Shown: positions 2,717 to 18,787 of the stretch, piece by piece
Numbering within the stretch: position 1 is the first letter of the stretch
Layout of the letters: each line of letters begins with the position of its first letter
DNA from: a virus
Virus record (IMG/VR): IMGVR_UViG_3300025543_000190
Location: 1-25,348 of that record
Strand: one strand, 5' to 3'
Length of the DNA stretch: 25,348 nucleotides
Made by a program: the position numbers and the translations under genes
The notes under the pieces: model-generated
Told to the model about the DNA's origin: nothing
Seen by the model: only the letters and a program-made list of their open reading frames with translations
Databases searched by the model: none

Positions 2717-5557
2717 ATGGCTAAAAGAAAAAAAAGAAACTTTGGCGGTGGTATGACTGACGAAGATAGGCAAGAAGGTTCTGGAGCTATTAATACAGAT
2801 GACACGTACCGCTTCGAGCTAGGCATTCCACCCGAGATCACTAGCCCCGGTGGAGAGCCTATTGAGCCTATCCCTACTGTTGATTTAACTAAGGGTGTTC
2901 TGGACTATGCTGACGCTAATCCTAATGCCTCGGAAAAAGAGCTAGCCAGATATATTAGAGATACGGGAGCTAATGTTGTTGAGGTAGGTGCTGCTTTAGG
3001 TCTTGATGCAGCAACGTCAGAACAAATGTATGCAGACGCTTTAGGTGCTGAACTTGAAACACAACTAGTAGCGGAAACTCCTGTCGCAGGTATTACAGAA
3101 GATACTCCCGGTACATACAAAGCTCCTCCTGTTGCTGTAGAAAAATACATACAGAAACCTGAAGTAACTGATATTAATATAGCTGCTGGTGTAACCGCTG
3201 ATACTGCTATTCAACAGCTAGATAAGTTTGAAAATATTACAGCTCCTGATAAGGTAACAGTGGCTGAAATGACAACGACTGCTGCTGATATAAAAGAAGC
3301 AGTAATGCAAGGTGACATTGAGCCTCAAGAATATGAAGCCGAATTAGTAAAAGCACTAAACAGAACTGTAGCCGCAGTAGGAACTGAGCGTCCTCCTATT
3401 TCTATACAGGAGATTCGTGACCTAAGCCAAAGAGCGAAAGCCGCTACAATGGGCGATGTTTCAGTTGGGCTAGCTAGTACTGCTGATTTTAAAATTGACC
3501 CTAACTCTTTTGTACCCGGAGTTACTGCAACTAATATACAAATTTCTCCAACTCCTCAAGTTGAAAAGCAACAACGAGAAGCAATAACAGGAACGTCTGC
3601 ATCAGGCGTAGAAGCTCAGATATTAGGCACAGTAAATTATCAAGCTTCTCAGTCTAGGGCAATTAAAGGGACAGCCGCTAAAGGTGCTGCTGCCTCAATG
3701 GTTGCAGAAGTGGCTAATCTACCTCCGTCAGTAGCAGAAGTTATTGTAGAAGATCCTGCGACAGTAACGGCAGCTATAGATACACAGCCTATAGAAATAC
3801 AAGCTGCTGTTGCTGCACTGCCTCAAGAGGCTTTAGTATCTTCACAGTTAGAAACTTTATTAGGTGGCCTTGAAGATGGTAATGTACCTGCATGGGCTAA
3901 ACCAGCAGTAGATCTAGTTGAATCCCAGATGCAACAAAGGGGTATGTCTGTTTCAACTGTAGGCAGGGATGCTCTGTTTAATGCAATTATTCAATCAGCT
4001 ATACCTCTAGCTCAATCGAATGCTACAGCGTTACAGCAAAGAGCAACTCAAAATCTTTCTAATGAACAGCAAGCTAATTTACAATCTGCTCAGTTAGATT
4101 CTACACGTAGACTACAAAATTTAAGCAATCAACAAACTGCTGCAAGTCAAACAGCGCAGATGGCACAAGAGATGGGACAGCTACAAAGCCAGTTCCGTCA
4201 AGATGCAGCGATTCTTACAGCGCAACAGAACCAACAGATTCGCACACAGAACTTGGCTAACCGCCAAAGATCTGCTGAGATCAATGTTCAAAACGTACAA
4301 GCTAATAACGCTCAGAATCTTTCTAATGAACAGCAAATAGAACTAGCAAACCTAGAGGTCATGAATCTTACTGAACGTGAGAACATGAGCGCAGTAAACC
4401 AAGCAAGGCTTGCAGAGTTTCAAGTAGCAGCAGATTTCATGAGTAAAAATGCTGCTTTTACTCAACAGATGGAGTTAGCAAATCTAGATGCTAATCAGCA
4501 AGTAAAGCTTGCTAATCTTACTTCATTAAATAACGCAAGCTCAGATAATCTTAATGCTGCACAGCAGACAGAGTTGGCTAATCTAAACGCAAGAATGGAA
4601 ACAAATCTTGCTCAAGCTAATATTGCTCAAGCAATGGGTATTGCACAGCTTAATGTAAATCAGCAAAGAGCTGTTGAAAATGCTAAGATGGTAGCTAATA
4701 TTGATTTGACTAAGTTTAATGCAGATCAACAAGTCCAACTAGCTAATAGTCAGTTTATGCAGACTGTTACTATGACAGACTTTAATGCTAGACATCAAGC
4801 AGCTATGCAGAATGCTACAGCTCTTGCATCTTTAGATCTGGCTACTGTTGATCAAAGAACTAGGGTATCTATAGAGAATGCTAATAACTTTCTACAGTTT
4901 GATTTAGCTAATCTTTCTAACGAGCAACAAGCAATAGTATTAGATCAACAAATAGAGCAGCAACGTATGTTAAGTGATGCATCGGCTCAGAATGCAGCTA
5001 AACAATTTAAAGCTACGTCTGCCCAGCAAACTGAACAGTTTAATGCTAATTTAGCTTCCCAGATGGAGCAATTTAATGCTTCTCAACAAAATGCTATGGC
5101 ACAGTTCAATGCTAGCGAAGCAAATAGAATGGAAGCTGTAAATGCCCAAAATGAATTAGAAGCGGATAAGTTTAACAATCAGTTGACCGCACAGGTTGAT
5201 CAATATAATTCTTCTATGGATCAACAAAGAGAAATGTGGAATGCTCAAAATGCTCAAGCCGTAGAGCAATCTAATACTGAATGGCGTAGGCAAGCTAACA
5301 CTATTAATACTGCCGCTGAGAACGCAGCAAACGCAACGGCAGCACAGCAAGCTTATAACTTATCAACTCAAGAGCTTGCAAACACTTGGCAGCAATTACG
5401 TGATGATGCCACATACGCGAGAACAGCTTATGAAAATGAAGAGCAGCGTAAAACTACTTTGTATGCAACAGCACTAGCGAATGATCCCGGTGCTGCCGGG
5501 GATACCGACTATATAAATACATTAATTGGAATAGCTGATAGAGTTATAGGCTCATAG
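2717..5557 (+). CDS. Large Q/N/A-rich internal virion protein with hendecad repeats
   Basis: This 946-aa protein has three zones. Residues 1-50 form a basic start (MAKRKKRNFGGG) and a short Gly/Pro-rich region. Residues 50-430 are Ala/Val/Thr-rich and weakly repetitive. Residues 432-871 form an unbroken series of 11-residue units (listed separately) rich in Gln, Asn and Ala. The C-terminal ~75 residues are helical and charged. Cysteine is absent from the parts I examined. Long Q/N-rich helical proteins of this kind, with QFNA motifs, occur in the structural cluster of marine phages and are usually described as internal or unspecified virion proteins. It is the first of five large consecutive genes that probably make the internal core or ejectosome. 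A tape-measure-like or tunnel role would fit the extended helix but is not shown. Confidence 0.7.
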   Translation: MAKRKKRNFGGGMTDEDRQEGSGAINTDDTYRFELGIPPEITSPGGEPIEPIPTVDLTKGVLDYADANPNASEKELARYIRDTGANVVEVGAALGLDAATSEQMYADALGAELETQLVAETPVAGITEDTPGTYKAPPVAVEKYIQKPEVTDINIAAGVTADTAIQQLDKFENITAPDKVTVAEMTTTAADIKEAVMQGDIEPQEYEAELVKALNRTVAAVGTERPPISIQEIRDLSQRAKAATMGDVSVGLASTADFKIDPNSFVPGVTATNIQISPTPQVEKQQREAITGTSASGVEAQILGTVNYQASQSRAIKGTAAKGAAASMVAEVANLPPSVAEVIVEDPATVTAAIDTQPIEIQAAVAALPQEALVSSQLETLLGGLEDGNVPAWAKPAVDLVESQMQQRGMSVSTVGRDALFNAIIQSAIPLAQSNATALQQRATQNLSNEQQANLQSAQLDSTRRLQNLSNQQTAASQTAQMAQEMGQLQSQFRQDAAILTAQQNQQIRTQNLANRQRSAEINVQNVQANNAQNLSNEQQIELANLEVMNLTERENMSAVNQARLAEFQVAADFMSKNAAFTQQMELANLDANQQVKLANLTSLNNASSDNLNAAQQTELANLNARMETNLAQANIAQAMGIAQLNVNQQRAVENAKMVANIDLTKFNADQQVQLANSQFMQTVTMTDFNARHQAAMQNATALASLDLATVDQRTRVSIENANNFLQFDLANLSNEQQAIVLDQQIEQQRMLSDASAQNAAKQFKATSAQQTEQFNANLASQMEQFNASQQNAMAQFNASEANRMEAVNAQNELEADKFNNQLTAQVDQYNSSMDQQREMWNAQNAQAVEQSNTEWRRQANTINTAAENAANATAAQQAYNLSTQELANTWQQLRDDATYARTAYENEEQRKTTLYATALANDPGAAGDTDYINTLIGIADRVIGS
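4010..5329 (+). repeat. About 40 tandem 11-residue (33-bp) repeats inside the 946-aa gene
   Basis: Reading residues 432-871 in steps of 11 keeps the same register from the first unit (AQSNATALQQR) to the fortieth (NTINTAAENAA) with no insertion or deletion. Position 4 is Asn in about 25 of the 40 units. Positions 9-10 are often Gln-Gln, and positions 2 and 5 are often hydrophobic or aromatic. Typical non-adjacent units are ELANLDANQQV, DLTKFNADQQV and EQFNASQQNAM. At the DNA level most units have diverged, but one 21-bp run is identical at 4052-4072 and 4316-4336, with a degenerate third copy at 4910-4930. Eleven-residue periodicity matches a helix of 11/3 pitch, as in hendecad coiled coils and lipid-binding 11-mer helices. 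Confidence 0.85.
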
Positions 5558-5566
5558 GTAATTAAA

Positions 5567-6655
5567 ATGGGATTTTTTAGTAAGATATTTAAAGGTGTTA
5601 AAAAAGTCTTTAAAAAGATTGGTAAGGGTATAAAAAAGGTTGCTGGCAAAGTTGGCAAGTTTATGAACAAGATTGGAATCGTTGGTCAGATTGCAATGGC
5701 TTTTATTCTTCCCGGCATTGGGCAAGCTCTCGCAAGTACTTTAGGTAATATGGGGACATGGGCAGCTTCGGTAATAGCTAATCCTGCTACAAATGCCTTG
5801 GTAAAAGGAGTAGCTCATGTTACTAACGCTGCTGTTAAGTTTGCTGCAGGAACAAGCAGAGTATTTAATACTGTTACTAGTGCGGTTAAAAACTTTACAG
5901 GCGAAATAGGTAAAACTATACTAAATAAAATTCCCGGTATAAAGGTAGAAAGTGCAGCTTCTAATATATTTGGAACAGGTGGAGCATTAGAAAAGGCTGC
6001 AGCTGCTACCGGAAAAACTTGGGATACTACTATAGGTAGTTCAAAGTGGTGGGATGGTTTTGCAAGATCTACTGATAATATACCTGCTGGTTTTACTGGG
6101 CCTCCAGAACCTATAGGTACTACGTCCTATCCTGCTTCTGGGCCAGCAAACTTAACTAGGCAAGGTCTTGAAGTGCGTCAGCCTCCGGCAGGAGACTATA
6201 CGACTATAGATGTTACAGCAAAAAGAATTGATCCTACTACTGGCTTTACAGTTGAATCAGGAGTTCCTGCAGATATACCTTTAGATATACCTGAAGTTAG
6301 ATTTGATAAGCCATCTTTGCTAGACAGAATTAAAGGTGAGTCTGGAGTTTCTATAGGTTCTGAAAATGCAGTATCAGATTTAGGTAAAGATTATCTTATC
6401 ACAGAGCGTAGTCTAGCGGCAGCAGGAACAGAGGCAGTGAAGGCAGTTGGACAGAGCCTAATGGCTCCAGAGGCTCCTGACTATGATTATAGCGGAGGTC
6501 AAGTAGTAGTAGCTGAAAATGCTTATGAGGTTTCATCTAGTCAAGGAGGAATATCTCAAATGCCACAAATAGGCTATGGTGCGCCTATGCTTCAGTATGA
6601 TGCGATGTATAAACCAACAGGAATGTATTCTAGAAGAATGCAAGGCTTCTTATAA
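5567..6655 (+). CDS. Internal virion protein with cationic amphipathic N-terminus
   Basis: This is a 362-aa protein. Residues 1-35 form a strongly cationic amphipathic helix with repeated F-K-K / I-K-K spacing (MGFFSKIFKGVKKVFKKIG), resembling membrane-active antimicrobial peptides. A Gly-spaced hydrophobic segment follows at about 36-62 (IGIVGQIAMAFILPGIGQALA). Residues 62-130 are Ala/Val/Thr-rich and helical. The remainder is Pro/Gly-rich and probably poorly ordered, ending in a Tyr/Met-rich tail. The gene lies between two other presumed internal virion genes and starts 9 bases after the previous stop. The architecture suggests a protein that inserts into the host inner membrane during DNA ejection. 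That role is inferred from composition and context, not from an identified family. Confidence 0.6.
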   Translation: MGFFSKIFKGVKKVFKKIGKGIKKVAGKVGKFMNKIGIVGQIAMAFILPGIGQALASTLGNMGTWAASVIANPATNALVKGVAHVTNAAVKFAAGTSRVFNTVTSAVKNFTGEIGKTILNKIPGIKVESAASNIFGTGGALEKAAAATGKTWDTTIGSSKWWDGFARSTDNIPAGFTGPPEPIGTTSYPASGPANLTRQGLEVRQPPAGDYTTIDVTAKRIDPTTGFTVESGVPADIPLDIPEVRFDKPSLLDRIKGESGVSIGSENAVSDLGKDYLITERSLAAAGTEAVKAVGQSLMAPEAPDYDYSGGQVVVAENAYEVSSSQGGISQMPQIGYGAPMLQYDAMYKPTGMYSRRMQGFL

Positions 6656-6656
6656 A

Positions 6657-7199
6657 ATGGAAAAAAGTTACGTAGATCATATATTAAAAGCTGGAAGATC
6701 TATTCCGGGTCAGTCTCTTACGAACGATCCTGAGCAACGCTATGAATTTGAAAAAGCTCCTGAGATAACTAATCTTAGAGAAGGTATTGAATATTTTTTC
6801 ACAAAGATTGTAGAGGAAGAAACATATCCAGAAGTTATGGAGTTAGTTATAGAGGGCATTCCTATAATGGAAATTGTTCAAACTATACTCTTTGCGGCTT
6901 TTGATAAAGGTATTTGGAATCCTGATCTAATGATGCTGCTTGCAGAACCTGCTACTTACATAATCATGGGATTAGCTGAAAGAGCTGGTATAGATTATGT
7001 TATCTATGCAGAAGAAGATGAAGAAGAAGAAGCAGAAAATAGAGCAACAGGAGCAACTGTTGATATGGCTTCTTATATGAAAAATAAACATCAGAACATA
7101 CCTAAAGGTGCTATACCTAAAGAGATACAAGAAAAAATAGAAGAGTTGCCTGTAGAAAGTTTAATGGCTCCTCAAGAAAAGAATTTGTTAGAGGAATAA
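6657..7199 (+). CDS. Conserved marine-phage structural-cluster protein
   Basis: This 180-aa protein is counted from the ATG at 6657, one base after the previous stop; an in-frame ATG at 6576 would overlap the previous gene by 80 bases. The N-terminus has the pattern R-x-I-P-G-Q-S-L-T-N-D-P, followed by F-E-K-A-P-E. A helical middle carries the conserved-looking stretch FAAFDKGIWNPDLMMLLAEP (about residues 78-97). An acidic run (EEDEEEEAE, about 123-131) precedes a polar tail. I recall the 'PGxSLTxxP ... W-N-P-D' pattern from proteins in the structural region of cyanophages and other marine phages, where it is a minor or uncharacterised virion component. There is no signal peptide or catalytic motif. 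Confidence 0.6.
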   Translation: MEKSYVDHILKAGRSIPGQSLTNDPEQRYEFEKAPEITNLREGIEYFFTKIVEEETYPEVMELVIEGIPIMEIVQTILFAAFDKGIWNPDLMMLLAEPATYIIMGLAERAGIDYVIYAEEDEEEEAENRATGATVDMASYMKNKHQNIPKGAIPKEIQEKIEELPVESLMAPQEKNLLEE

Positions 7200-7201
7200 A
7201 A

Positions 7202-8557
7202 ATGGCTATTGAATCAGTTTTTACTAAGTTACAAAACAACAGACGTAGACAATATAAAGATATTGCTAAACGGCAACAGAGGGAGGCCGCTGTAGGTACA
7301 TTTTCTAATGTAGCTGGTAAATTTTTAGGAACTGTATTAAATGATACATTACGTGAGTCTGCTAATAGTTTTATTAACTCTGCTCCTATAATGGATGAAA
7401 GAATACAAGCTAAAATAGCCAATGATAGAAAAACAAGAATAGGTGGTATTCAGAAGCAAATAGATGCTTCCGGTAAATCTACATACGACTTTTTGTTTGA
7501 GCAGCACCTCCCTACTTTTGAAGAAGGTTACAGAGCAGAGTTGGCTGAAAGAGAAGGCGAAGAAGGCTGGAGAGATTTTGCAGCTAACCCTGATGTATTT
7601 GATGCAGATATTAGAAACAGACTGGGAGAAATAATTACTCCGCTGGCAGCAAATCATGATGAGGCTTATGCGTTGTCCCAAAGAGTAGGAAGCTTTGAAG
7701 ATTTTAATGCTACGGTAGAGTTAGCTTCTAAAAATGCCAAACCTGCTAGTGTCATGGGTCTTCTAAGTCGTGAACTAAGGGGAGCTATATCAGGAAGATC
7801 TAGGCAAGACTTTGAAGATGAGGCTTTTCTCGCTATTCAAAATGGCCCCTTGGCTCAGAATGTAGATGCCTTCAATACCTTTATGGATAAGTATGAGCAA
7901 GAAAAAAGTGTTGTCAAGGCCGCAAAGTTTACAGACTATGTTCATGATCTAGAGGCTCCTACAGATAGAGATAAAGTAGACACAGAGGAAAATATTATAA
8001 GTTTAGGTAGTGGTATTAACCAAGTGTTGTTTAAAACTGAAAAAATAAAAACAACAGATGTTTTTACAGGTGAAGTAACGACAGTCACAAGTGAGCCAGA
8101 AATAGTTTATTCGGCTAGGAAAGATGATCCTGTATTAGCTGCCCAAGCTACAGCAGAAACTTTAAGAAACACTTTTAATTATGCTGATCAAGTTAAAAAT
8201 TATCTGAGTACCGATGGTGTTAATGCATTTGCTACGAAAGTGCAGGAAGCTGGTTATGATGCAGTAGGCGACTACACAACACAGGCTCAGTGGCAAGCAG
8301 AAGGTGAAATATTTACAGAGCTTCTTAAAAATCCATCTTATGTAGATAATCCAGATCTAAGAGCTAGACTAGCCGCTGGATATGATTTAGTTGTTAATGA
8401 TGGCGTAGCACTACAAGCTTTAGTATTAGAATATGAAAGAGAAGATATTACTTTAGAAGAATATCAAACACAATTTGACTCTTTATTCAAAAGAATATTA
8501 CAGAATATGACCCAAGTAAAATCTTTGACTTCACCACAAGAATATGAACGCCCATAA
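7202..8557 (+). CDS. Putative internal virion protein
   Basis: This 451-aa, mostly helical protein starts at an ATG two bases after the previous stop. The N-terminus is basic (residues 1-30, several R-R-x-Q and K-R-Q-Q-R groups) and is followed by a moderately hydrophobic stretch (about 31-62). The remainder is rich in acidic residues and Ala with no cysteines seen. No enzymatic motif was recognised. Its size, composition and place between the smaller virion protein and the giant 1630-aa gene match the T7 arrangement of several consecutive internal core proteins, but I see no sequence link to a specific T7 protein. It may serve as a scaffold or partner for the giant protein. Confidence 0.6.
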   Translation: MAIESVFTKLQNNRRRQYKDIAKRQQREAAVGTFSNVAGKFLGTVLNDTLRESANSFINSAPIMDERIQAKIANDRKTRIGGIQKQIDASGKSTYDFLFEQHLPTFEEGYRAELAEREGEEGWRDFAANPDVFDADIRNRLGEIITPLAANHDEAYALSQRVGSFEDFNATVELASKNAKPASVMGLLSRELRGAISGRSRQDFEDEAFLAIQNGPLAQNVDAFNTFMDKYEQEKSVVKAAKFTDYVHDLEAPTDRDKVDTEENIISLGSGINQVLFKTEKIKTTDVFTGEVTTVTSEPEIVYSARKDDPVLAAQATAETLRNTFNYADQVKNYLSTDGVNAFATKVQEAGYDAVGDYTTQAQWQAEGEIFTELLKNPSYVDNPDLRARLAAGYDLVVNDGVALQALVLEYEREDITLEEYQTQFDSLFKRILQNMTQVKSLTSPQEYERP

Positions 8558-8567
8558 GGACTAAGCA

Positions 8568-11500
8568 ATGCCTAGACCAGTTACATTATCAACAGGAAAA
8601 GTTATTACTAATGTCCCTGATGACGTTACAGATGAGCAAGTTGAAGCTCAATATGTTGGGAGTACTATAGAGCAGCCAGAGCCTGTAGAGCAACCAGAGC
8701 CTGAAGAAGAAATAAAAAATATTCCTGTAGAAAAGGAAGGAGTAGTCTTTGATTTTAGAAAAGTTTTGGCCCGTACTGAAGCGAGTATAATAGGAACAGG
8801 AATCGATGTTTTATCATCCTTCGCACCCAAAGAACATCGTGAAATTATTCAAAAGTTTTCTGGGCAAATGGGAGCGGCTTTAGCTACACAAGGACAACCA
8901 GATCTTTTAGATCCAGAAACAGGTAAAGTGCGAGGGTCTACAACTGTTACTGGGCAGATTGCGGAAGTTGTGCCATATCTTGCGGTAGGTTCAAAAGCAG
9001 CGGGAATTAAAGCAATAGCACAGACTCCAAGGATAGTTCAAGGAGCCTTGAGTGGTATGCTTACGGATCAGCTACTGGGCGATGAAGATGAAAATTTATT
9101 TAACTTTTTAGAAGAAGCGTTTCCTGAGACAACTGTAGCTGACATATCGGCTTATTTAGCAACTGATGAAACGGACTCTGAAGTTGAAAAGCGTTTAAAG
9201 TTAGTAGGCGAGGGTCTTGCGCTTGGTGCCTTAGTAGATATGGCTGTAGCGGGTGGAAAAGGAGCCGTGGACATCTACTCAAAAGCGCGTTCAATGTTTA
9301 ACAAGAACGCTAAAAATCTTAGCCCAGAGGAAAGGGGTGAGGTATTTGTAGATTATCTAAAAGATTCTAGAGAAAGAGCAGGATTACAGAAGCGTGAAGA
9401 TAAAATAGAGTTTAACGAAACTGCTGAGGGGGCTGCACAAGTACAACAGCAGCGAAGCAGTCGTTTAAATAGAGTATTTAGGCAGCTTTTTACTCAGAGA
9501 GGATATTTTACAACCAAAGCTAAGAGTGCTTTTGATGATGCCCAGTACGCGCAGAGATCTGCTGTCAGTAGAGCCGAACACATAGCCACTAGATTAACTA
9601 CAGCTATGGATGAGATGGCTAAAAACTCAGACGTTGATATAAGCGATAAAGTTCAAAAAGTTCTTACAGATCCAAAGTTAAAAGATCTAGGAAGATCTGA
9701 TAGAAAACTTGCTTTGATGGATATAGAAGAAGAGTTTGGTTTTTCAACTGAGGTAGCAGAAGAAGTTTTAAATGCCAGAGAGCTTATTGATGATTTATCA
9801 AAAGAAATAACAGGAAGCTCTAGCATACCCTTAGAGATTAAAGAACTTGTAAATGAAAATATAGGATCGTATCTAAGAAGGTCTTATCGTTTATTTGAGG
9901 ATACAGGATTCAAACCATCTGAAGATGTTGTCAATGATGCCAGAGAGTATCTAGTCCAACAAACTATGGATAAAACTCAGGGTGCAATGGATCTAGATGA
10001 GGCGTACAGGCAAGCAGAGATACAAATAAATAATATTTTAGATCAGGGAGGCTTTGCAGATAGAAACGCAGCAGGAGATTATTTTGTAAAAGCCAAAAGA
10101 ATTAATGGTGAAATATTAACAGGTAAACAAGAAATATCTCCTGAGATTAGGGCATTGATGGGAGAGATAACAGATCCTGCGGATAACATTGTTCTTACCG
10201 TAAGTAAAATGTCTAGGTTTGTAGAGACTAGCAAGTTTTATAGTAACTTAAACAAGCTAGGCACTCAGGGTAAATACATCTTTGATGAAGATAATGCTCC
10301 TGTAGATTTAATTAAAGATGCGAATAAGATAACAGGAACTAATTCAATACTAGATGGCAAGTATACAACTCCTGAAATACTCACTGCAATAAAACAAAAC
10401 GAATCTTTTCTATCAGCCCCACAAGCTGACAATGTTTTAGCTAATGCGTACAGAACTTTCTTATCACTTAAAGGATCTTCACAGGCTGCTAAAACTGTAT
10501 TCAGTGTGACTACACAAGCTAGAAACCTATTAGGTGGTTTACAGTTTGGAACAGCTAACGGACTAAAACCTTACGAGTTCAGTGGTGCAGGAACAACACT
10601 TAAAAATCAACTAACAAAAGGCCAAGATGTAACCTTAGATGCACTTTATGAAAAGTATTTAAGACTAGGCATTATAAACACTAATGTAAGGGTTGGGGAA
10701 TTTAGATCTCTAATGGAGTCAGATATAGATACTCTTATTGACCCCAGTAAACTTAGAGATAAGCTAGGTAAAATAGGAAAGTATGGTGGTAAAGTTGTCG
10801 ATGCTGTAGAAGATGTTTATGTTGCTACTGACGATCTCTTCAAAATAAGCGCATACAATCAAGAGCTAGATACTCTTAAAGAGGCATTCCCGGATAGAGA
10901 ACTAGCTACTCTTGAAGAAGAGGCTGCTAATGTAATCAGAGATACTCTACCTAACTATGACAGAGTTCCTAAAGGTATAAAGGCTTTAAGAAACGCACCG
11001 GTTGGTAGCTTTGTAAGTTTTCCTGCTGAGATTATTAGAACTTCAGGAAATATAATTAGACAAGCCTCACGCGAAATAACCTCAGGTAACGATGTTTTAA
11101 AGGCTAGAGGACTAAGAAGAATTGGAGGATTTCTAGCGACTAACGGAGCCTTTTATGCTGCTGGATCAGCCACTGCTAAACTTGCAGGATTAACTGAAGA
11201 AGAGAGGGAAGCTGCACAGACTTTGACTGAAACTCCTTGGTCAAAGGATGCGCCAAAGTTATTTCTAAGAATGGATGATAAGTTATATACATCTGATACA
11301 CAGTTTTTAGATAGCTATAGTGTAATTAAAGAACCACTAATGGCGGCTTATCGTGAAATACGCGATGGCAGTTTACAGGGAGAGAGACTAGATAAATATT
11401 TAGCGGATGCTACTGTAAGTGCAGTAGATGCTTTAGTAAGACCATATGTAGATGAAACAATACTTACAAAAGCAATAACAGATGTCGGGTTTGCTATGAA

Positions 11501-13460
11501 AGGCAATGGTAGAACTCCAGAAGGTAAGGCTCTGTTTACCGCAAACATGACTAAAAGAGAAAGACTAGAAGCTACTCCTTATCATATTCTAGAGGCATTT
11601 GTTCCGGGTGTGGTTACTCAGACAAAGAATCTTTTTGAAGCAGGGCTGGATGTACCTAATAAGTACACAGGAAAGAATAACTTAGTTTCTACTGAGCTTG
11701 TTGCAATGTTAGGTGTAAGATTTAAAGAGCTAGCCCCTGAAGATTCTTTAAGATTTTCTATATCAGACTATAACGAAGATAACAGAAACCTACAGAGTGT
11801 TTTTGTAAATTATAGATCAACACAGGATCAGATTGTAGGAGATTATGTTAATAAAGAAAAGGCTTTGTACAGAAATGCTCAAGAGCTTTCTAGAAAAGTT
11901 GAAGCCTCTATAGATCTAATAGGCAAAAGAAAAACAGCACAGTATCTACAAGATGGAAATCTTAGTAATAAAACTATAAGCCAGTTTTTAAGCGGTCGAT
12001 ATATGCCCACACAAGTATCTTCAGATTTGATTAGGAACGCATACGAAAAGATGCGGTTTGGGCCGGGAGAGTCTGTTGGGGCTACTGTTAAAGAAATGAC
12101 TAGGCAATATTCCAATATGGTAGGCACTAGGCTAGAAAGACCTAAAGAAGATTCTCCCCTAAGAAGAACTTTGTTTTCCATAGGCGGTGAAGTTTATAAT
12201 GTGCCTAATGCCCCTGAAGAACCTGATGAGCGCATAGATCGTTTGACAGGTCTTCCTTATAATGAACAGGCTGGTGGAGCCTTTATTGATGAGGAAGAGC
12301 GCGTAGAATTTGCTGGCGGTGGTAAAGTTGTTATAGGGCTACTAGCAGATGTGATTGAAAAATATTCTAAAAGAAATGTCTCTAGAGACTCAGCACAAGA
12401 GGCTGCTAGTAGAATAGTTAATGCTGTAGATACACCTATTGAGGATATGGATATTCCTTTGGAGTTAAGCACAGCTAATCCAAAGTATGTAGAATTTCTA
12501 CAAACTAATACTCGCGCTTTGTTAGACGAAAAGCATAGTCCTATTCCCCCTGAAATACTAGAACAAGGCGAGGTAGGTGGCGAAGAGTTTTCAAGACTTA
12601 GAGGATATACAGATGAAGAAATTCAGGTGTTCAATAGGTCGGGTGAACTGGCAGATGAAATAGGTATGGAAACTGGTCAAGACTTAGCAGATGAAACTTT
12701 TTTGATCACAAATGAGTTAGATAATATTAGAGCTAGGGATATGGCCTATGATGACTTTGCACAGGACAGTACAATAGCCAATCAAATAGCCGACATAGAG
12801 CTAGAATACGAAGAGATGATAGCCACGGCAAAAGCAAATGGTGATACTGAAGAATTAAAAGAGCTGCTATTAGAAAGAAAAGAAAGGATAGCAGAACTTG
12901 ATAGAGCCGACTTTGCAGACGGCGGCGTATTAAAAAAGATATTTAATAAAACTCTTACGGCTGGAGCCGAAGCTTTAGGCTTTGGTGCAGAACAGCAACG
13001 CGCTCATGAAAAAGAAGTTGTTCGTTTAGTAAATCAATTTGCTGAACAGGGCCTAATACCTCAAAGATCTATGATACCTACTGATGAAGCAGGGTTCGGG
13101 AAGTTTGGTTCGGGGGCTGATGAAGAAGCCTTCAATGCTTTAAATCATGCCTACCTAGTATACAAGCATGGCTCTACGCTTAAAGATCCTTTACTTCAGG
13201 CAAAGGAAATAGGCCAATCGTTTTTTAGAGAAAACCCTAATACTGAAAAACTAGATATGGTTAATAATGCATACGGTGCTAATCTAAGAGATGTGGCAGA
13301 AAACGAAGAAGATGCAAAAACTAAACTGGCGCTAGCCTATTACAACACAAGTAAAAAATTAGCTGAAGGGAAACCTTTAATATATGGAGAAGATTTAGTA
13401 TTTAATGTGAACGATCTAGATAAAGTAGAATCTGGTAGTTTTGCATACAATCTAAGATAA
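8568..13460 (+). CDS. Giant internal virion / DNA-ejection protein (1630 aa)
   Basis: This is the largest gene in the window. The first ~30 residues (STGKVITNVPDDVTDEQV) resemble the short 'NVPxxxTxEE' leader at the start of many large phage internal proteins, and an acidic EQPEP repeat follows. A long helical body includes SFVSFPAEIIRTSGNIIRQ near residues 814-832, a motif I associate with giant marine-phage virion proteins. Gly/Ala-rich stretches near 135-175 and 850-870 could be membrane-active. Two short motifs, FAGGG (residue 1248) and FADGG (1449), separate the last ~380 residues into two smaller units. The final unit has an N-A-x-N-H-A-Y ... M-V-N-N-x-x-G pattern. No transglycosylase motif was recognised. 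By size and position it is the likely counterpart of T7 gp16-type ejected proteins. Confidence 0.65.
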   Translation: MPRPVTLSTGKVITNVPDDVTDEQVEAQYVGSTIEQPEPVEQPEPEEEIKNIPVEKEGVVFDFRKVLARTEASIIGTGIDVLSSFAPKEHREIIQKFSGQMGAALATQGQPDLLDPETGKVRGSTTVTGQIAEVVPYLAVGSKAAGIKAIAQTPRIVQGALSGMLTDQLLGDEDENLFNFLEEAFPETTVADISAYLATDETDSEVEKRLKLVGEGLALGALVDMAVAGGKGAVDIYSKARSMFNKNAKNLSPEERGEVFVDYLKDSRERAGLQKREDKIEFNETAEGAAQVQQQRSSRLNRVFRQLFTQRGYFTTKAKSAFDDAQYAQRSAVSRAEHIATRLTTAMDEMAKNSDVDISDKVQKVLTDPKLKDLGRSDRKLALMDIEEEFGFSTEVAEEVLNARELIDDLSKEITGSSSIPLEIKELVNENIGSYLRRSYRLFEDTGFKPSEDVVNDAREYLVQQTMDKTQGAMDLDEAYRQAEIQINNILDQGGFADRNAAGDYFVKAKRINGEILTGKQEISPEIRALMGEITDPADNIVLTVSKMSRFVETSKFYSNLNKLGTQGKYIFDEDNAPVDLIKDANKITGTNSILDGKYTTPEILTAIKQNESFLSAPQADNVLANAYRTFLSLKGSSQAAKTVFSVTTQARNLLGGLQFGTANGLKPYEFSGAGTTLKNQLTKGQDVTLDALYEKYLRLGIINTNVRVGEFRSLMESDIDTLIDPSKLRDKLGKIGKYGGKVVDAVEDVYVATDDLFKISAYNQELDTLKEAFPDRELATLEEEAANVIRDTLPNYDRVPKGIKALRNAPVGSFVSFPAEIIRTSGNIIRQASREITSGNDVLKARGLRRIGGFLATNGAFYAAGSATAKLAGLTEEEREAAQTLTETPWSKDAPKLFLRMDDKLYTSDTQFLDSYSVIKEPLMAAYREIRDGSLQGERLDKYLADATVSAVDALVRPYVDETILTKAITDVGFAMKGNGRTPEGKALFTANMTKRERLEATPYHILEAFVPGVVTQTKNLFEAGLDVPNKYTGKNNLVSTELVAMLGVRFKELAPEDSLRFSISDYNEDNRNLQSVFVNYRSTQDQIVGDYVNKEKALYRNAQELSRKVEASIDLIGKRKTAQYLQDGNLSNKTISQFLSGRYMPTQVSSDLIRNAYEKMRFGPGESVGATVKEMTRQYSNMVGTRLERPKEDSPLRRTLFSIGGEVYNVPNAPEEPDERIDRLTGLPYNEQAGGAFIDEEERVEFAGGGKVVIGLLADVIEKYSKRNVSRDSAQEAASRIVNAVDTPIEDMDIPLELSTANPKYVEFLQTNTRALLDEKHSPIPPEILEQGEVGGEEFSRLRGYTDEEIQVFNRSGELADEIGMETGQDLADETFLITNELDNIRARDMAYDDFAQDSTIANQIADIELEYEEMIATAKANGDTEELKELLLERKERIAELDRADFADGGVLKKIFNKTLTAGAEALGFGAEQQRAHEKEVVRLVNQFAEQGLIPQRSMIPTDEAGFGKFGSGADEEAFNALNHAYLVYKHGSTLKDPLLQAKEIGQSFFRENPNTEKLDMVNNAYGANLRDVAENEEDAKTKLALAYYNTSKKLAEGKPLIYGEDLVFNVNDLDKVESGSFAYNLR

Positions 13461-13462
13461 TT

Positions 13463-13633
13463 ATGAAATACTCACTATGTGCATTACTTATTTTAACTGG
13501 CTGTTCAACATCGAACTACGATTTTCCTATAGAGTTTCCTAACACTATGCCTGAGGAATTGTTTCAGATGAATCTTAGAGACTGTAGATCACAGCCTCAC
13601 TGCTCTGCGGATCAACTATTTGATAGGTGGTAA
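13463..13633 (+). CDS. Small lipoprotein (56 aa), possible outer-membrane spanin-type protein
   Basis: This short gene begins two bases after the giant virion gene. The N-terminus is a classic lipoprotein signal: MK, a hydrophobic run, then the lipobox L-T-G-C with the acylated cysteine at residue 14, followed by Ser-Thr-Ser. The mature part would be only 43 residues, with two further cysteines (41 and 47) that could form a disulfide or a dimer. Small lipoproteins close to the endolysin are often o-spanins, which help disrupt the outer membrane. This one is less Pro-rich than typical Rz1, no i-spanin is visible beside it, and the cytochrome/copper gene separates it from the endolysin. It could instead serve that neighbouring exported enzyme. 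Its stop codon directly follows the ribosome binding site of the next gene. Confidence 0.7.
   Translation: MKYSLCALLILTGCSTSNYDFPIEFPNTMPEELFQMNLRDCRSQPHCSADQLFDRW
13625..13630 (+). promoter_or_regulatory. Ribosome binding site of the cytochrome/copper protein
   Basis: AGGTGG lies four bases before the ATG at 13635 and immediately before the stop codon of the lipoprotein. It fixes the start at 13635 rather than at an in-frame TTG at 13620, and it leaves a clean signal peptide at the protein's N-terminus. The placement implies translational coupling between the lipoprotein and the enzyme. Confidence 0.6.
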
Positions 13634-13634
13634 T

Positions 13635-14936
13635 ATGAAAAAGACTTTATTAGCTGTTTGTATGGGACTAGCTACGGCGGCTCAAGCCGATGATACATAT
13701 GTCGATACGGTAGCAAGTATAATAAATAATAACTGTGTTGTCTGCCACAGGGAAGGCGGTATAGGCCCTATGTCTTTTGAGACTTATGAACAGGTAAGAC
13801 CTTGGTCTCCTTTAATTTCCCATAAGGTAGCTAATAGAGAGATGCCCCCTTATGCTTATGATGATCATATAGGCATTCAAAACCTTGAAGGAGATTGGAG
13901 ACTATCACAGGAGCAGATAGAAACTGTTGTGAACTGGGTAAACTCTGGTTCTCCTTATGGTAGTCGAGATACAGTTGTTCAACCTCCTGCCCTACCTAGT
14001 TTAGAATCTTGGAATTTTGAGCCAGAGTTTGGTAGTCCTGACCTTATCATACCTTCTTCATCCTACGACATCCCTGCTACTGGCAATGACCTATGGAGCA
14101 AGGAGTTTGTAGATCCTCAATTAGCTGAAACACGTTGTATAAAAGCTGTACAGGTTAAGCCTAGGGGTGATGCAGCGGCTGTAGTTCATCACGCTAACTC
14201 AGATGTATATGTATATGATGATGAAGGAGAGCTGCAGCAGTATGGTCAGTTGACTGAATATGCTATGGGCAAGTGGGGTGAATTAATGCCTCAAGGAGTG
14301 TGCCGTACTTTCCCTGCTAACTCTTTGGTGCGTTGGGATATCCATATGTTTCCCGGTGGTGTAGGAGCCACAGCAGAAGGGAACATGATTAAAGATAATG
14401 TGGTAGAGATTGGTTTATGGTTTCATGAAGAAGACTATCAAGCTAACAACGATGTCTATCAACAAGACTTAAAGCTCTATCCTCTAAGGGATGGTTATGA
14501 GAATGGACATTTAATTATTCCTCCTAATGGTTACACTATGACACAAGGGTTTCACAGCTTTGATCACCCTGTCAGGATAGATAGCTTCCAGCCCCACGGT
14601 CATCTTCGTATGAATGCTGCTTCACTAGAGATATTTAGCCCCCTTACAGGACGTACAAGACCCGTCAGTCAGATATCTAATTGGAGTGCTACTTGGCACC
14701 ACAGTCATCTATACAGCCCCTCAGAGGCTCCCTTGTTGCTTGCAGGAGAAGTAATGGTAGTAAAACAATGGTACGACAACACAGAAGATAACCCTAATAA
14801 CCCTGATCCTGATCAGTGGGTGGTAGGTGGAAGCCGTACTGGTGATGAGATGTCTCACGCTTGGATTGCTGTTACTCATCTGGATGATGAAGGCTATGAA
14901 AATCTTTTAAGGGAAAGGCTTTATGGGGCTGATTGA
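13635..14936 (+). CDS. Exported cytochrome c / type II copper (PHM-like) monooxygenase fusion
   Basis: This 433-aa protein has a Sec signal peptide, MKKTLLAVCMGLATAAQA, cleaved near residue 18. Residues ~20-110 form a small cytochrome c domain: haem-binding C34-V-V-C37-H38, and M70 in REMPP as the likely axial ligand. Residues ~130-415 match the copper type II ascorbate-dependent monooxygenase fold. H185-H186 and H237 correspond to the CuH ligands of peptidylglycine monooxygenase, and H321-x-H323 plus M406 to the CuM ligands. The stretch DNPNNPDP and the DEM motif match bacterial fusions of this architecture. C168 and C223 may form a disulfide. Substrate is unknown. The product would act in the host periplasm and needs host haem attachment. 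It lies in the late operon, overlapping the endolysin start by 14 bases. Codon use looks like that of its neighbours, so it is not an obvious recent arrival. Confidence 0.85.
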   Translation: MKKTLLAVCMGLATAAQADDTYVDTVASIINNNCVVCHREGGIGPMSFETYEQVRPWSPLISHKVANREMPPYAYDDHIGIQNLEGDWRLSQEQIETVVNWVNSGSPYGSRDTVVQPPALPSLESWNFEPEFGSPDLIIPSSSYDIPATGNDLWSKEFVDPQLAETRCIKAVQVKPRGDAAAVVHHANSDVYVYDDEGELQQYGQLTEYAMGKWGELMPQGVCRTFPANSLVRWDIHMFPGGVGATAEGNMIKDNVVEIGLWFHEEDYQANNDVYQQDLKLYPLRDGYENGHLIIPPNGYTMTQGFHSFDHPVRIDSFQPHGHLRMNAASLEIFSPLTGRTRPVSQISNWSATWHHSHLYSPSEAPLLLAGEVMVVKQWYDNTEDNPNNPDPDQWVVGGSRTGDEMSHAWIAVTHLDDEGYENLLRERLYGAD

Positions 14937-15336
14937 TTTACTAATAAGACATGAAGGTTTAAAACTTGAACCTTACCGATGTACTTCAAATAAATTAACT
15001 ATCGGTGTGGGTAGAAACTTAGAAGATTGTGGCATCAGTGAAGATGAGGCCAGATACCTCCTGAAGAATGACATACAAAACTTTCATGAAGAGCTAACCG
15101 AAAGATTTTATTTCTATAAGTATTTAGAAGGAGCTAGGAAGGATGCCCTGTTGAATCTAGCATTTAATATGGGGGTTCCAAGGCTAGCTACTTTTGTCAA
15201 AGCCTTAGACTTTATGTCTCAGCGTAAGTACACAGAAGCAGCCGATGAATTTTTGAGATCTCGATGGGCTGATCAAGTAGGGAATAGGGCTACAGAAATA
15301 GCCGCTATGATTCGTACTAATGAATATCCTACTTAA
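14923..15336 (+). CDS. Endolysin, T4-type lysozyme (GH24 muramidase)
   Basis: This 137-aa enzyme hydrolyses the MurNAc-GlcNAc bond of peptidoglycan. The N-terminus aligns directly with T4 lysozyme: catalytic E11 in R-H-E-G-L, C20 where T4 has D20, and T26 in K-L-T-I-G-V-G. This is the known E-8aa-D/C-5aa-T triad, so the Cys variant is expected to be active. Further family features are the R-W-A-D-Q-V-G-N-R-A segment near residues 109-118 and the A-L-x-x-L-A-F-N-M-G helix near 65-76. It is shorter than T4 lysozyme (164 aa). There is no signal peptide, so release depends on a holin. The start lies inside the preceding gene, and the gene ends tail-to-tail with the last minus-strand gene, overlapping it by 8 bases. 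Confidence 0.9.
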   Translation: MGLIDLLIRHEGLKLEPYRCTSNKLTIGVGRNLEDCGISEDEARYLLKNDIQNFHEELTERFYFYKYLEGARKDALLNLAFNMGVPRLATFVKALDFMSQRKYTEAADEFLRSRWADQVGNRATEIAAMIRTNEYPT

Positions 15337-15556
15337 CTATGGTAGCAGTAACTGCTTGCATTTCTTTTTCTAAAGAAACCGAAGACTCTTTAAATTTCTT
15401 ATTCATAAACGTATGAATAGTCTTTATTAAAGAGGCTTCGTATTTATTTTTAAATACTTTTTCTATTTCTTCAAAAGGAAGTTCAGCGAACTCACAGTAT
15501 ATATTACCATCAATTCCTAGCTGAACTGCCATAGAAACAATATTACCTTTTTTCAC
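15329..15556 (-). CDS. Small unknown protein at the end of the DNA-metabolism operon
   Basis: This 75-aa reading frame starts at GTG, overlapping the nrdB stop codon as GTGA. Such tight coupling argues that it is a real gene. The protein begins MKKGNIVSMAVQLG, has a short acidic/hydrophobic middle (E-L-P-F-E-E-I-E-K-V-F) and a helical, Lys-rich C-terminal half. There are no cysteine pairs beyond a single Cys and no recognisable motif. It is the last gene of the minus-strand operon, and its 3' end overlaps the 3' end of the endolysin gene. No function is proposed. Confidence 0.55.
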   Translation of the reverse strand: MKKGNIVSMAVQLGIDGNIYCEFAELPFEEIEKVFKNKYEASLIKTIHTFMNKKFKESSVSLEKEMQAVTATIVK

Positions 15557-16515
15557 GAGAAAGTGATTCCTTCTTGCTTACCCCTGAGTCCGGCTTTCAT
15601 ATATGCGGTAGCTCTGCCTTCAAAAAAGTTCTGATGCTCAACGCCTAGCACATCATCTAACCAATCTAAGGGGTTCTCTTTTACTTTGTAGTTAGGCTTT
15701 AGGCCAAGCTGAAGCAGTCTGCGGTCTGCAATATATTCAACATAGTCCGACATCTCTTTGCGTGTTAGGCCGGGGATGTCACCAAGTTCAAATACCAAAT
15801 CAAGAAACTTCTGTTCTAGGTTTACCATATCTCTACATGACTGATAGATTTCTTTCTTAAACTCATCAGTCCATATATCTAAATTCTCTTGTATAAACTC
15901 CCTGAATAGCTTGGTCATAGCCTCAACGTGTAGGGATTCATCCTTAATGCTATAGCTTACAATCTGTCCCATCCCTTTCATCTTACCAAAACGTGGGAAG
16001 TTAAGCAGTATTACAAAGCTTGAGAACAACTGTAGTCCTTCTGTAAAGGCACTATATACGGCAAGGTTCTTAGCAATAGACTTTTTATCTGTCTTGGAAA
16101 TCTTCAGGTCATTGATATACTCATGCTTAGAGGCCATCTCCTCATACTCTGCAAAAGCTTTATACTCTGTCTCTGGCATACCTACTGTGTCTAGTAACAG
16201 GCTGTAGGCGTGTTGGTGTATCGATTCCATGTTGGCAAATGAACCCATCATCATCCGGGCTTCAGGCTTTCTAAAGATTCTCATGTACCTATCTACGTAT
16301 CCTTTACCCACATCAACGTCTGATTGGGTAAAAAGTCTAAAGATTTGCACAAGTAAATTCTTTTCAGCAGTTGTCATATCCTGCCAATCTTTTACATCGT
16401 TGTGTAGAGGTACATCCTCAGGGAACCAATGCATCTGGTTCTGTTGGAAATAGTAATCAAACATCCAAGGGTGGTCAAAAGGTTTATAGTAATCGCGTGT
16501 TGATAGTAAACTCAC
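15553..16515 (-). CDS. nrdB: Ribonucleotide reductase class I, beta (R2) subunit
   Basis: This 320-aa protein makes and holds the radical needed by NrdA to convert ribonucleotides to deoxyribonucleotides. All six expected di-metal ligands align with E. coli R2 at the right spacings: D66, E97, H100, E159, E193 and H196. Tyr104 sits at the position of the radical Tyr122 (E-x-x-H-x-x-x-Y). This is therefore a tyrosyl-radical type subunit, not a metal-only variant. The start is GTG, overlapping the upstream zinc-ribbon stop as GTGA and preceded five bases away by a perfect AAGGAG. It is separated from nrdA by two small genes, all in one overlapping chain. It supplies dNTPs for phage DNA synthesis. 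Confidence 0.95.
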   Translation of the reverse strand: MSLLSTRDYYKPFDHPWMFDYYFQQNQMHWFPEDVPLHNDVKDWQDMTTAEKNLLVQIFRLFTQSDVDVGKGYVDRYMRIFRKPEARMMMGSFANMESIHQHAYSLLLDTVGMPETEYKAFAEYEEMASKHEYINDLKISKTDKKSIAKNLAVYSAFTEGLQLFSSFVILLNFPRFGKMKGMGQIVSYSIKDESLHVEAMTKLFREFIQENLDIWTDEFKKEIYQSCRDMVNLEQKFLDLVFELGDIPGLTRKEMSDYVEYIADRRLLQLGLKPNYKVKENPLDWLDDVLGVEHQNFFEGRATAYMKAGLRGKQEGITFS

Positions 16516-16658
16516 TTTTTCTCCTTATCTTCTATACGGTTTCGGCAATAGGGACACTGCCAAGCTTTATGCTGTACCTTCTTTTGTGGGTCATCCTCGT
16601 CATAGGTTAAGACCTCCATCATTTTAAATCCACAATTACAATACCTATATGACTTCAT
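16512..16658 (-). CDS. Small zinc-ribbon protein (48 aa) between nrdA and nrdB
   Basis: This short minus-strand gene is supported by ATG at 16658, an overlap of 14 bases with the gene before it and a GTGA overlap with nrdB. The protein reads MKSYRYCNCGFKMM, then a charged spacer, then WQCPYCRNR. The two knuckles (C7-x-C9 and C35-x-x-C38) are the signature of a one-domain zinc ribbon. The CPYC tetrad also happens to be the glutaredoxin active-site sequence, but 48 residues cannot hold a thioredoxin fold, so zinc binding is preferred. Its place between the two reductase subunits suggests a link to nucleotide metabolism or to regulation of the operon. The function is unknown. Confidence 0.7.
   Translation of the reverse strand: MKSYRYCNCGFKMMEVLTYDEDDPQKKVQHKAWQCPYCRNRIEDKEKK
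16521..16526 (-). promoter_or_regulatory. Ribosome binding site of nrdB
   Basis: On the minus strand, AAGGAG lies five bases before the GTG start of nrdB, inside the end of the small zinc-ribbon gene. It supports the GTG at 16515 over any later ATG. Confidence 0.65.
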
Positions 16659-16893
16659 ATTTATGTAAAGATTTAATCATTCCTGTTGGAATAACAATAG
16701 GCGTGTTTATTATTGATTTATCTTTGTCATAGTAATCTGTACATAATACAACACAATCACTATTATTTTCTACCAACCATCCTACTGTGGTTCTTGGTAT
16801 GGGCTTTAGTTTTTTTGCTCTCGACACCTCAACGTCCTGAAAGTCAGTCCAAGCATCATCCCATTTAACTTCTACAAGTGTTTTAGCCTTCAC
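16645..16893 (-). CDS. Unknown small protein between nrdA and nrdB
   Basis: This 82-aa protein starts at GTG, 11 bases inside the end of nrdA. It has a compact strand-rich look: V-E-V-K-W-D-D-A-W-T-D, then T-V-G-W-L-V-E-N-N-S-D-C-V-V-L-C, then I-V-I-P-T-G-M-I-K-S-L. Short proteins with this sequence of features ('W-x-D-A', 'TVGWL', 'IPxGxIKxI') are frequent in marine and other phages near nucleotide or replication genes, without an assigned function. They look like small beta-barrels. It overlaps the zinc-ribbon gene that follows. Confidence 0.6.
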   Translation of the reverse strand: MKAKTLVEVKWDDAWTDFQDVEVSRAKKLKPIPRTTVGWLVENNSDCVVLCTDYYDKDKSIINTPIVIPTGMIKSLHKYEVI

Positions 16894-18787
16894 AGCTTAG
16901 GCACTCCCCCTCAGAAAGGTTGATACGAGGAATCTTAATGTTTACATTCTCAGCAGATCTTGCTGCGTCTGACCTGAGATAGTACATAGACTTTAAGTTC
17001 TTGGCACCCGCCCAGTGTACATCATTAATATACTGGAGATACTCATCATGTACTTCTTGAGGCTCCGTAGCCTTAGGAGGAATAAAGAATAGGTTGACGC
17101 TCTGGCTCTGGCAGATGTAGTCTTGCCGCTGATGGGCATGTTCTACAATCCATATCTGATTTATCTCATCTGCTGTTTTAAATATTTCTTTAACACTATC
17201 AGGTAGATCAAGGTGCTGAACCGAACCCTGATGCTCTGCTATGCTTTTCCATATTTTCTTTCGCTTAGTATTGTCGGGGTATAGCTCAAGGAGAACATCA
17301 TCTAGATATTTATTCTGAACTTTAAAGCTTCCAGAGAGAGTCTTATGAGTAAAAATATTGGCCCTTACTGGCTCAATAGAAGGACTAGTACCACCACAGA
17401 TAATAGAGCTAGAGGCGTTAGGAGCTACAGCCATGAGGTGGGCATTCCTTCTACCACTACCTATCATATCAGGAGCCTCTCCTCTTTCTTCAGCTAATAT
17501 ACGTGAAGCAGCAGAAGCCCGATCTTTAATAAGAGAAAAAGATTTGTGATTGAAGGAGGCAGCATACATACCCTCAAAAGGTATTCCCTTGGCCTGTAAA
17601 TAACTATGAAAACCCATAGCTCCTAGACCCAAAGATCTTTCACGGTAAGCTGAATAGGCCGCTTTTGAATAGCCAATCTTTTCAGGGTCGCAGCAATTCT
17701 TAAACTCTGGAAAGTTTAAAGGTTTGTTTATCATATACTCATTTTGTACAGGCCAATCACCTACAACATAACCTACAAAATGTTGTATCACATTATCTAA
17801 CATTGTAATTAGATCAGGTATAAAGGTATCTAATGTTGACCATGCATCAAAGTGTTCTAGATTAACGCTGGACAAACAGCATACAGCGGTACGTTCTTCA
17901 TCTGTAGCTAATGTAATTTCAGAACATAGATTACTCTGTTTGATACTAAGCCCTAATGCTTTTTGCTCATCAGGTAAACTTTCATTACATCTATCTATAT
18001 TAACTATATAAGGCTCACCTGTTTCGGCCCTAGTGGATATAAGCTGCCACCAAAGATCTCTAGCAGATACAGTCTTAATTGCAGTATTAGTTTTAGGATC
18101 TATAAGTCTCCAATCGTCATCACGTTTTACAGCATCTAAGAAATCATTGGTGATGTTAACACCGTTGTGTAAGTTCAAGCATTTCCTATTTATATCCCCG
18201 CCTGTTGTCTTACGCATAGATATAAACTCTTCAATCTCCGGGTGAGAGATATTCATATAGGCAGCATAGCTTCCTCTTCGGGTAACTCCCTGATTGAAGG
18301 CTAACATCTGACTGTCAACTACATGCATGAAGGGAATAGAACCAGTAGATTTACTGCTGTTAGAAGTATCCACGCCGTTACTGCGAACAGCACCCCAATA
18401 TCCACCAATGCCTCCACCTCCACTTGCAAGCCATATGTTCTCATCATAGTGAGTAGATAAACCATGACGGGAATCAGGAACATAATTAAGAAAGCAACTG
18501 ATAGGAAGGCCACGGCTGGTACCCCCGTTGCTAAGGATAGGAGTGCTAAACATAAACCAGAGTAGGCTACTATAGTCATAAAGCCGTTGTGCCAAAGCAT
18601 AGTCAGTAATTTCATTATAAGTTGCTCCAAATATAGATGCTCTTGCGAAAGCCTCTTGAGCATGTTCTTCATCAGCCCAGAGGTATCTATCTTTTAACGT
18701 GGCGATTGCAAAATCACCAAGTAACTCTTCACGGGAATAATCTATTTTAATTCCCTTATAATCTTGTACACCAATTTTAGTTGTCAT
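16883..18787 (-). CDS. nrdA: Ribonucleotide reductase class I, alpha (R1) subunit without ATP-cone
   Basis: This is the 634-aa catalytic subunit that reduces ribonucleoside diphosphates. Key residues are present: C98 in I-S-C-F-L-N and C303 in A-V-C-C-L-S as the active-site redox pair. N286, C288 and E290 in N-L-C-S-E are the thiyl-radical site. The Tyr-Tyr of S-M-Y-Y-L-R is the radical-transfer pair, and C629/C632 in the C-terminal E-C-L-S-C-E-G form the swinging dithiol. Only about 20 residues precede the R1 core, so the N-terminal ATP-cone of E. coli-type enzymes, which gives dATP inhibition, is missing. The start overlaps the DUF3310 gene by 11 bases. No thioredoxin or glutaredoxin gene is seen in the window, so reduction presumably relies on host redoxins. 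Confidence 0.95.
   Translation of the reverse strand: MTTKIGVQDYKGIKIDYSREELLGDFAIATLKDRYLWADEEHAQEAFARASIFGATYNEITDYALAQRLYDYSSLLWFMFSTPILSNGGTSRGLPISCFLNYVPDSRHGLSTHYDENIWLASGGGGIGGYWGAVRSNGVDTSNSSKSTGSIPFMHVVDSQMLAFNQGVTRRGSYAAYMNISHPEIEEFISMRKTTGGDINRKCLNLHNGVNITNDFLDAVKRDDDWRLIDPKTNTAIKTVSARDLWWQLISTRAETGEPYIVNIDRCNESLPDEQKALGLSIKQSNLCSEITLATDEERTAVCCLSSVNLEHFDAWSTLDTFIPDLITMLDNVIQHFVGYVVGDWPVQNEYMINKPLNFPEFKNCCDPEKIGYSKAAYSAYRERSLGLGAMGFHSYLQAKGIPFEGMYAASFNHKSFSLIKDRASAASRILAEERGEAPDMIGSGRRNAHLMAVAPNASSSIICGGTSPSIEPVRANIFTHKTLSGSFKVQNKYLDDVLLELYPDNTKRKKIWKSIAEHQGSVQHLDLPDSVKEIFKTADEINQIWIVEHAHQRQDYICQSQSVNLFFIPPKATEPQEVHDEYLQYINDVHWAGAKNLKSMYYLRSDAARSAENVNIKIPRINLSEGECLSCEG

Follow-up and report, generated by a model that had tools for sequence, protein, structure and literature searches.

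Whole-unit length variation of a hendecad array in a probable virion protein family of HMO-2011-type podoviruses

The analysed window, a stretch of viral DNA of 25,348 nucleotides, carries on its plus strand an open reading frame (2717..5557) for a cysteine-free protein of 946 amino acids. The protein belongs to a family that is conserved in HMO-2011-type podoviruses, viruses with short tails that abound in the ocean. The family alignment places a conserved helical segment with the anchors P.WA and [LIVMAS]P[ILV]A (3830..4009, plus strand, aa 372-431) directly before the hendecad array. The array (4007..5332, plus strand, aa 431-872) consists of 40 units of 11 residues in a single register. 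It is followed by a C-terminal tail (5333..5554, plus strand, aa 873-946), and another conserved anchor, QSN..WRR, is located at aa 851-858, just before this tail. The initial annotation had placed the repeats at 4010-5329. These coordinates are exact and correspond to codons 432-871 of the ORF at 2717; the block recognised by an HMM is slightly longer. Its 442 residues include no proline, two glycines, no cysteine and seven lysines. Sequence searches with the window protein yielded no Pfam, PHROG or PDB match.

The periodicity anticipated in the initial annotation was recovered at lag 11 for hydropathy (z = 5.8), for Asn (z = 7.2) and for the self-identity of the array (0.217, z = 7.7 versus 1000 shuffles). 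Self-identity was 0.246 at lag 22 (z = 9.8), with z = 6.5 at lag 33, and the lags 11, 22, 33 and 44 all lay 6 to 10 standard deviations over shuffled sequence. Lags other than multiples of 11 did not exceed a z of about 2 against shuffles. Asparagine occupies position 4 in 27/40 units, where about 25 had been estimated. A cyclic 11-state HMM of hendecads was trained on the relatives alone, with the window protein left out. The window protein scored +228, while 100 shuffles of the array region reached 0.7 at most and every other tested gene in the window scored about 0. The HMM reads aa 431-872 as a single block with zero slips, which bears out the reading as 40 successive 11-mers without loss of register. 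The model is sensitive to slips: when 1-10 residues were inserted artificially, it caught the slip in 300 of 300 trials.

The genes downstream on the plus strand form a cassette with the array gene. The next gene encodes a 362-aa Cys-free protein (5567..6655) with homologues in 56 of the fetched loci. Its N-terminus is cationic, Gly/Lys-rich and amphipathic, is followed by a hydrophobic stretch and has a weak PHROG tape-measure match (E 8e-4). It is possibly a membrane-active partner of the array protein. The second gene downstream encodes a p207-family partner protein of about 180 aa (6657..7199), with homologues in 92 of the fetched loci. The ORF was listed from 6576; the family alignment favours the ATG at 6657, probably the true start, and this drops all four cysteines. 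A fast-evolving Cys-free protein of 451 aa (7202..8557) and a Cys-free protein of 1630 aa, a virion structural protein according to PHROG (8568..13460), complete the cassette. Cysteine is nearly absent: 2 in 86,614 aa of hendecad proteins and 0.13 per 1000 in the four genes downstream, versus 3.82 per 1000 in the upstream genes.

The family corresponds to HMO-2011 gene 25 and matched 27 of 50,697 phage records. Members include phage1322_25, CRP1_gp35, HTVC103P_gp59 and CHOED_013, and the annotation is almost everywhere hypothetical. One homologue in ctYwJ313 (L021:7008-9599) is annotated as 'huntingtin', presumably for its Gln-rich composition. Relatives were gathered from isolated phages, IMG/VR and bacterial genome bins. 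The window protein has the family flanks (P.WA...PIA and N..WRR) around its slip-free hendecad block, and a tblastn search with the pre-array segment (aa 372-431) found the same phages as the family search. Electron microscopy has shown short tails for the isolates CRP-1, CRP-2, CRP-3 and MQM1 (PMC6918029, PMC10410586). The HMO-2011 portal was taken as a marker of this kind of phage; Pfam models of the T7 portal and tail tube gave no hit anywhere, even in controls, and are thus uninformative. In most environmental contigs searched, the portal is 48-54% identical to that of HMO-2011. An HMO-2011-like portal was seen where contigs with arrays of the window class and longer include that part of the genome. 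The long arrays thus sit in the same kind of phage.

According to the HMM, 111 of 112 proteins have a single uninterrupted hendecad block, and the arrays range from about 15 to 81 unbroken hendecads. Array lengths were compared between conserved anchors. For the first anchor pair, counted from xPIA to the W of WRR, 69/70 proteins have a distance of 9 mod 11. For a wider anchor pair, the distance is 5 mod 11 in 85 of the 89 relatives having both anchors, with 20 distinct lengths from 159 to 863 residues. Since these counts were taken over related sequences, a binomial p is not to be read literally. After thinning to <70% identity, 44/48 relatives were in register by the wider anchors. Thinning to <45% identity left 8 clusters, five in register by the wider pair; the other three are phiM6, CRP-3 and CRP-738 (lengths 183, 194 and 205). 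Together with L094, these are the register exceptions for the wider anchors, and CRP-3 and CRP-738 fall in register under the first anchor pair. As a control, the spacing from P.WA to [LIVMAS]P[ILV]A is 39 residues in 99/102 relatives. The control lengths of the N-terminal part, the C-terminal part and the whole protein were not quantised and spread over all residue classes mod 11.

Pairs of unequal length were compared over the last 140 residues around the downstream anchor, where the closest of them share 69-92% identity. The lengths of these closest pairs differ by 11, 44, 66, 110, 121, 176, 187, 220, 297, 330 or 440 residues, in every case an exact multiple of 11. The repeat number among relatives, named in the initial annotation as the comparison to make, thus changes by whole 11-residue units. 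Selection on the exact 11-residue geometry, first suggested from the unbroken 33-base steps of one gene, is strongly supported, as whole units alone are gained or lost among relatives. This whole-unit ladder across relatives is the main finding, and the observation is stronger than first stated. In the open literature searched, no description of the repeat and the unit ladder of the HMO-2011 gene 25 family was found.

The long arrays have a second level of organisation. Arrays of more than 300 residues lie mostly on a ladder of 313, 423, 533, 643, 753 and 863 residues, in which each step adds ten units (110 residues; 25/28 after thinning to <70% identity, 5/7 at <55%). The mean self-identity of longer arrays is 0.249 at lag 55 and 0.266 at lag 110, compared to 0.16-0.21 at other multiples of 11 up to lag 154. 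This super-repeat of 55 and 110 residues, or 5 and 10 hendecads, was seen in L058, L071, L072, L076, L082, L088 and L089. The sequences suggest duplication of a block of two five-unit halves. The 110-residue step may either have a structural meaning or merely reflect unequal recombination between 330-bp repeats.

On a helical wheel with 11 residues per three turns, the positions follow each other in the order 11, 4, 8, 1, 5, 9, 2, 6, 10, 3, 7. In an alignment of 36 relatives, positions 8 and 1 are charged and variable and are the sole positions with more than 25% acidic residues. Positions 6 and 10 are Gln, Ser, Asn or Ala, with few charges. The most conserved positions are 4 (Asn 64%), 5 (Ala/Leu) and 9 (Gln/Asn 68%). 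In the window array, the charges are centred at 66 degrees, with an amplitude matched by 1/2000 shuffles, and the amides at 234 degrees (85/2000 shuffles). Charges and amides lie on opposite sides of the helix. For the large hydrophobic residues of the window array, no single-face moment was seen above shuffles: 1367/2000 shuffles and, in another run, 315/500 reached the amplitude. These residues do have a significant two-face component. The relatives are mixed in this respect: HMO-2011 has a significant single-face component, and the longest arrays have some single-face component. The pattern of faces fits a helix flanked on either side by another, with one face to the solvent and one amide face. 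An AlphaFold monomer model was largely helical, of low confidence (pLDDT 55) and bent, without reliable packing. A fold search with it found a few high-identity relatives and generic long-helix phage proteins, such as tape measures.

A hendecad helix in DNA delivery is known from phiX174. Ten helices make up the H-tube, each with three hendecads and eleven heptads; of 121 residues, 23 positions face inward, and Gln, Asn and Arg provide most of the lining of the lumen (PMC7354561). Placed on the family profile in all 11 phases, the hendecads of H (residues 151-183) scored positively in a single one (+5.6), and the remaining ten gave -9.8 to -42. The fitting phase puts Gln 151, 158, 162, 169, 173 and 180 of H on positions 6 and 10, the amide stripe of the array. 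We infer that these glutamines point inward, since glutamine is the commonest lumen-lining residue of the H-tube. Hhalign of H against the family found the same phase over 41 columns (probability 6.6%, E 0.0056 for one comparison). Both proteins have a hendecad helix with a Gln/Asn stripe in matching phase, and their composition is similar, with Asn/Gln shares of 26% and 32% and large-hydrophobic shares of 25% and 23%. They differ in architecture: three hendecads followed by heptads over 121 residues in H, unbroken hendecads throughout the arrays. The carrier of the array is a dsDNA podovirus, and an hhalign probability of 6.6% does not prove homology with H. The best reading of the comparison is that the array protein may work like phiX174 H, without a claim of homology.

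The cassette resembles the genes for the ejection, or internal core, proteins gp14, gp15 and gp16 of T7 and gp7, gp20 and gp16 of P22. All are podovirus cassettes with broadly similar gene sizes and almost free of cysteine; T7 gp15 and gp16 and P22 gp7, gp20 and gp16 have none. In contrast, the T7 and P22 proteins have no such hendecad arrays (HMM score 0), and hhalign of the cassette families with T7 gp14, gp15, gp16 and P22 gp20 found no sequence relation. An AlphaFold model of residues 112-1164 of the 1630-aa protein (pLDDT 69, pTM 0.64) was compared with the PDB. With VIA-align, chain 7eyb (residues 551-860) was the first of 958 aligned chains, and 7EYB is T7 gp16 (PMC8954989). The match covers 218 residues, about twice the length of the next matches, at a Z of 6.0 that is below the trust level of the tool. 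Foldseek alone found no match at E<0.001 for this model. In a relative, a match to phrog_4287, 'DNA ejection protein', was discarded, being due solely to an S74 chaperone tail.

Dimensions limit the possible arrangements. At 0.15 nm per residue, a helix of 427 residues is 64 nm long and one of 863 residues 129 nm. MQM1 has a capsid of 70.6 nm and a tail of 9.2 nm (PMC10410586), and its array of 185 residues between the anchors corresponds to a helix of 27.8 nm. If heads are MQM1-like, the longest arrays cannot lie straight in a 70.6 nm capsid. A long alpha helix, as initially proposed, agrees with the composition and with the low-confidence, bent AlphaFold model. The shortest arrays (24-28 nm) would be about long enough to span a Gram-negative envelope. 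A reading of the array as an envelope ruler was dropped: phages of one host genus, Pelagibacter, have arrays of 163 and 317 residues (first anchor pair), and others reach 129 nm. Array length is thus not simply set by the host envelope.

We infer oligomeric state, location and function of the array protein as follows. The array would be a continuous, nearly straight alpha helix of 40 hendecads, and copies would pack side by side via two weakly hydrophobic seams. One seam would consist of positions 3, 7 and 11 beside the conserved Asn of position 4, the other of positions 2 and 5 with the conserved Gln/Asn of position 9. The charged, variable stripe of positions 1 and 8 would be outside and the uncharged amide stripe of positions 6 and 10 on the opposite side, forming an amide-lined helical sleeve or tube. 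In this proposal, both seams would be disrupted by a partial unit, and for this reason length changes by whole units. The protein would probably be packaged together with the neighbouring cassette as the internal or ejection set of an HMO-2011-type podovirus. It may leave the head bent or disassembled, reassemble and help to line the path of the DNA across the envelope, as H does. We assign a probability of about 0.45 to this reading of an ejected virion protein whose side-by-side hendecad helices form an amide-lined sleeve or tube for DNA. A bundle or tube spanning the envelope during ejection had been suggested at the outset; the ejection role is plausible from the podovirus context, the cassette, the gp16 match and the H-like pattern. 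A more specific version is tentative. Giant hendecad helices of about 15-81 repeats would form a barrel in these short-tailed ocean phages, a modular, unit-counted DNA sleeve that enlarges the amide-lined type of tube of phiX174 H; it would be stored in the head in bent form and be assembled anew in the host envelope.

Helices with 11-residue repeats also occur in apolipoproteins and synuclein, and lipid binding of this type by an amphipathic helix on a membrane surface had been considered from the beginning. The window array gives it no support, and it is very improbable. The large hydrophobic residues form no single face above shuffled sequence, charge is confined largely to two positions and lysines are few. 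A helix with this arrangement of charges, amides and two hydrophobic faces is ill-suited to a membrane surface. Another reading is an internal organising rod. Such a helix in head or tail would not be a conduit; it would set a length or hold DNA or core proteins and grow by unit duplication, as the tape measure proteins of siphophages expand. The literature describes tape measure proteins in which the number of 11-aa repeats varies (Belcaid et al. 2011, PMC3271669; TP901-1, PMC5099701). The array protein is similarly long and also evolves in length by 11-residue units, and the length ladder, the 55/110 super-repeat and the weak N-terminal tape-measure match of the 362-aa protein point in the same direction. 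In contrast to the array protein, those tape measures have Trp/Phe as markers and determine how long the tail of a long-tailed phage becomes. The phages with arrays have short tails, their pattern is one of Asn and Gln, and the tail of MQM1 does not match its array in length. A Trp or Phe marker every 11 residues is absent from the arrays: position 4 is Asn in 64-68%, and aromatic residues are a minority at every position. With a tail of 9.2 nm and an array of 27.8 nm in MQM1, the one relative with such data, the array is not a one-to-one tail ruler. An organising rod is unlikely on this evidence.

As an external fibre or stalk, the hendecads would form a homotrimeric coiled coil that serves as a long side fibre or tail fibre, and some members would use a C-terminal chaperone for its assembly. 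The Peptidase_S74 chaperone domain is known for homotrimers. Such an endosialidase-type chaperone, scoring over the curated cut-off, forms the C-terminal end of the proteins of CRP-738 and CRP-3 (the two loci are L024:1597-4008 and L023:2329-4185), and the hint at homotrimers favours a fibre over a wide tube in these two. In both HMO-2011 and the window, the array gene adjoins the tail-fibre cluster, the T7 fibre gp17 likewise has a lag-11 signal (z 3.8), and arrays of up to 129 nm suit an external fibre better than the interior of a capsid. However, an S74-bearing tail was seen in 2/20 family members (PHROG and Pfam matches), and the P22 needle has a strong single hydrophobic stripe that is missing from the window array. 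The array gene is kept together with the downstream p207 gene, and the near absence of cysteine in array and cassette contrasts with the upstream, tail-fibre side. A fibre is therefore rather improbable for the family. An internal or ejected role is considered more likely, because of the kind of podovirus, the conserved Cys-free cassette, gp16 as the top fold match and the H-like pattern.

Parallels are known for each half of the system: 11-aa repeats of variable number in tape measures (PMC3271669) and a hendecad DNA tube in phiX174. The array protein is a candidate for a convergent solution to the latter. Natural relatives that differ by whole 11-residue units provide a handle on what a hendecad helix of counted length may do in DNA delivery. 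The unusually long, slip-free helices with their natural length variants are material for structural work.

Further genes of the window lie downstream of the cassette. An exported-looking protein of 438 aa (13620-14936) has a CVVCH heme-c motif and a cytochrome c Pfam match below the cut-off. From its sequence, the gene may be a host-derived auxiliary gene on the phage. It is adjoined by a phage lysozyme (PF00959) at 14923-15336. The region 15553-18787 has Pfam matches to the small and large chains of ribonucleotide reductase, where HMO-2011 has an annotated B12-dependent enzyme.
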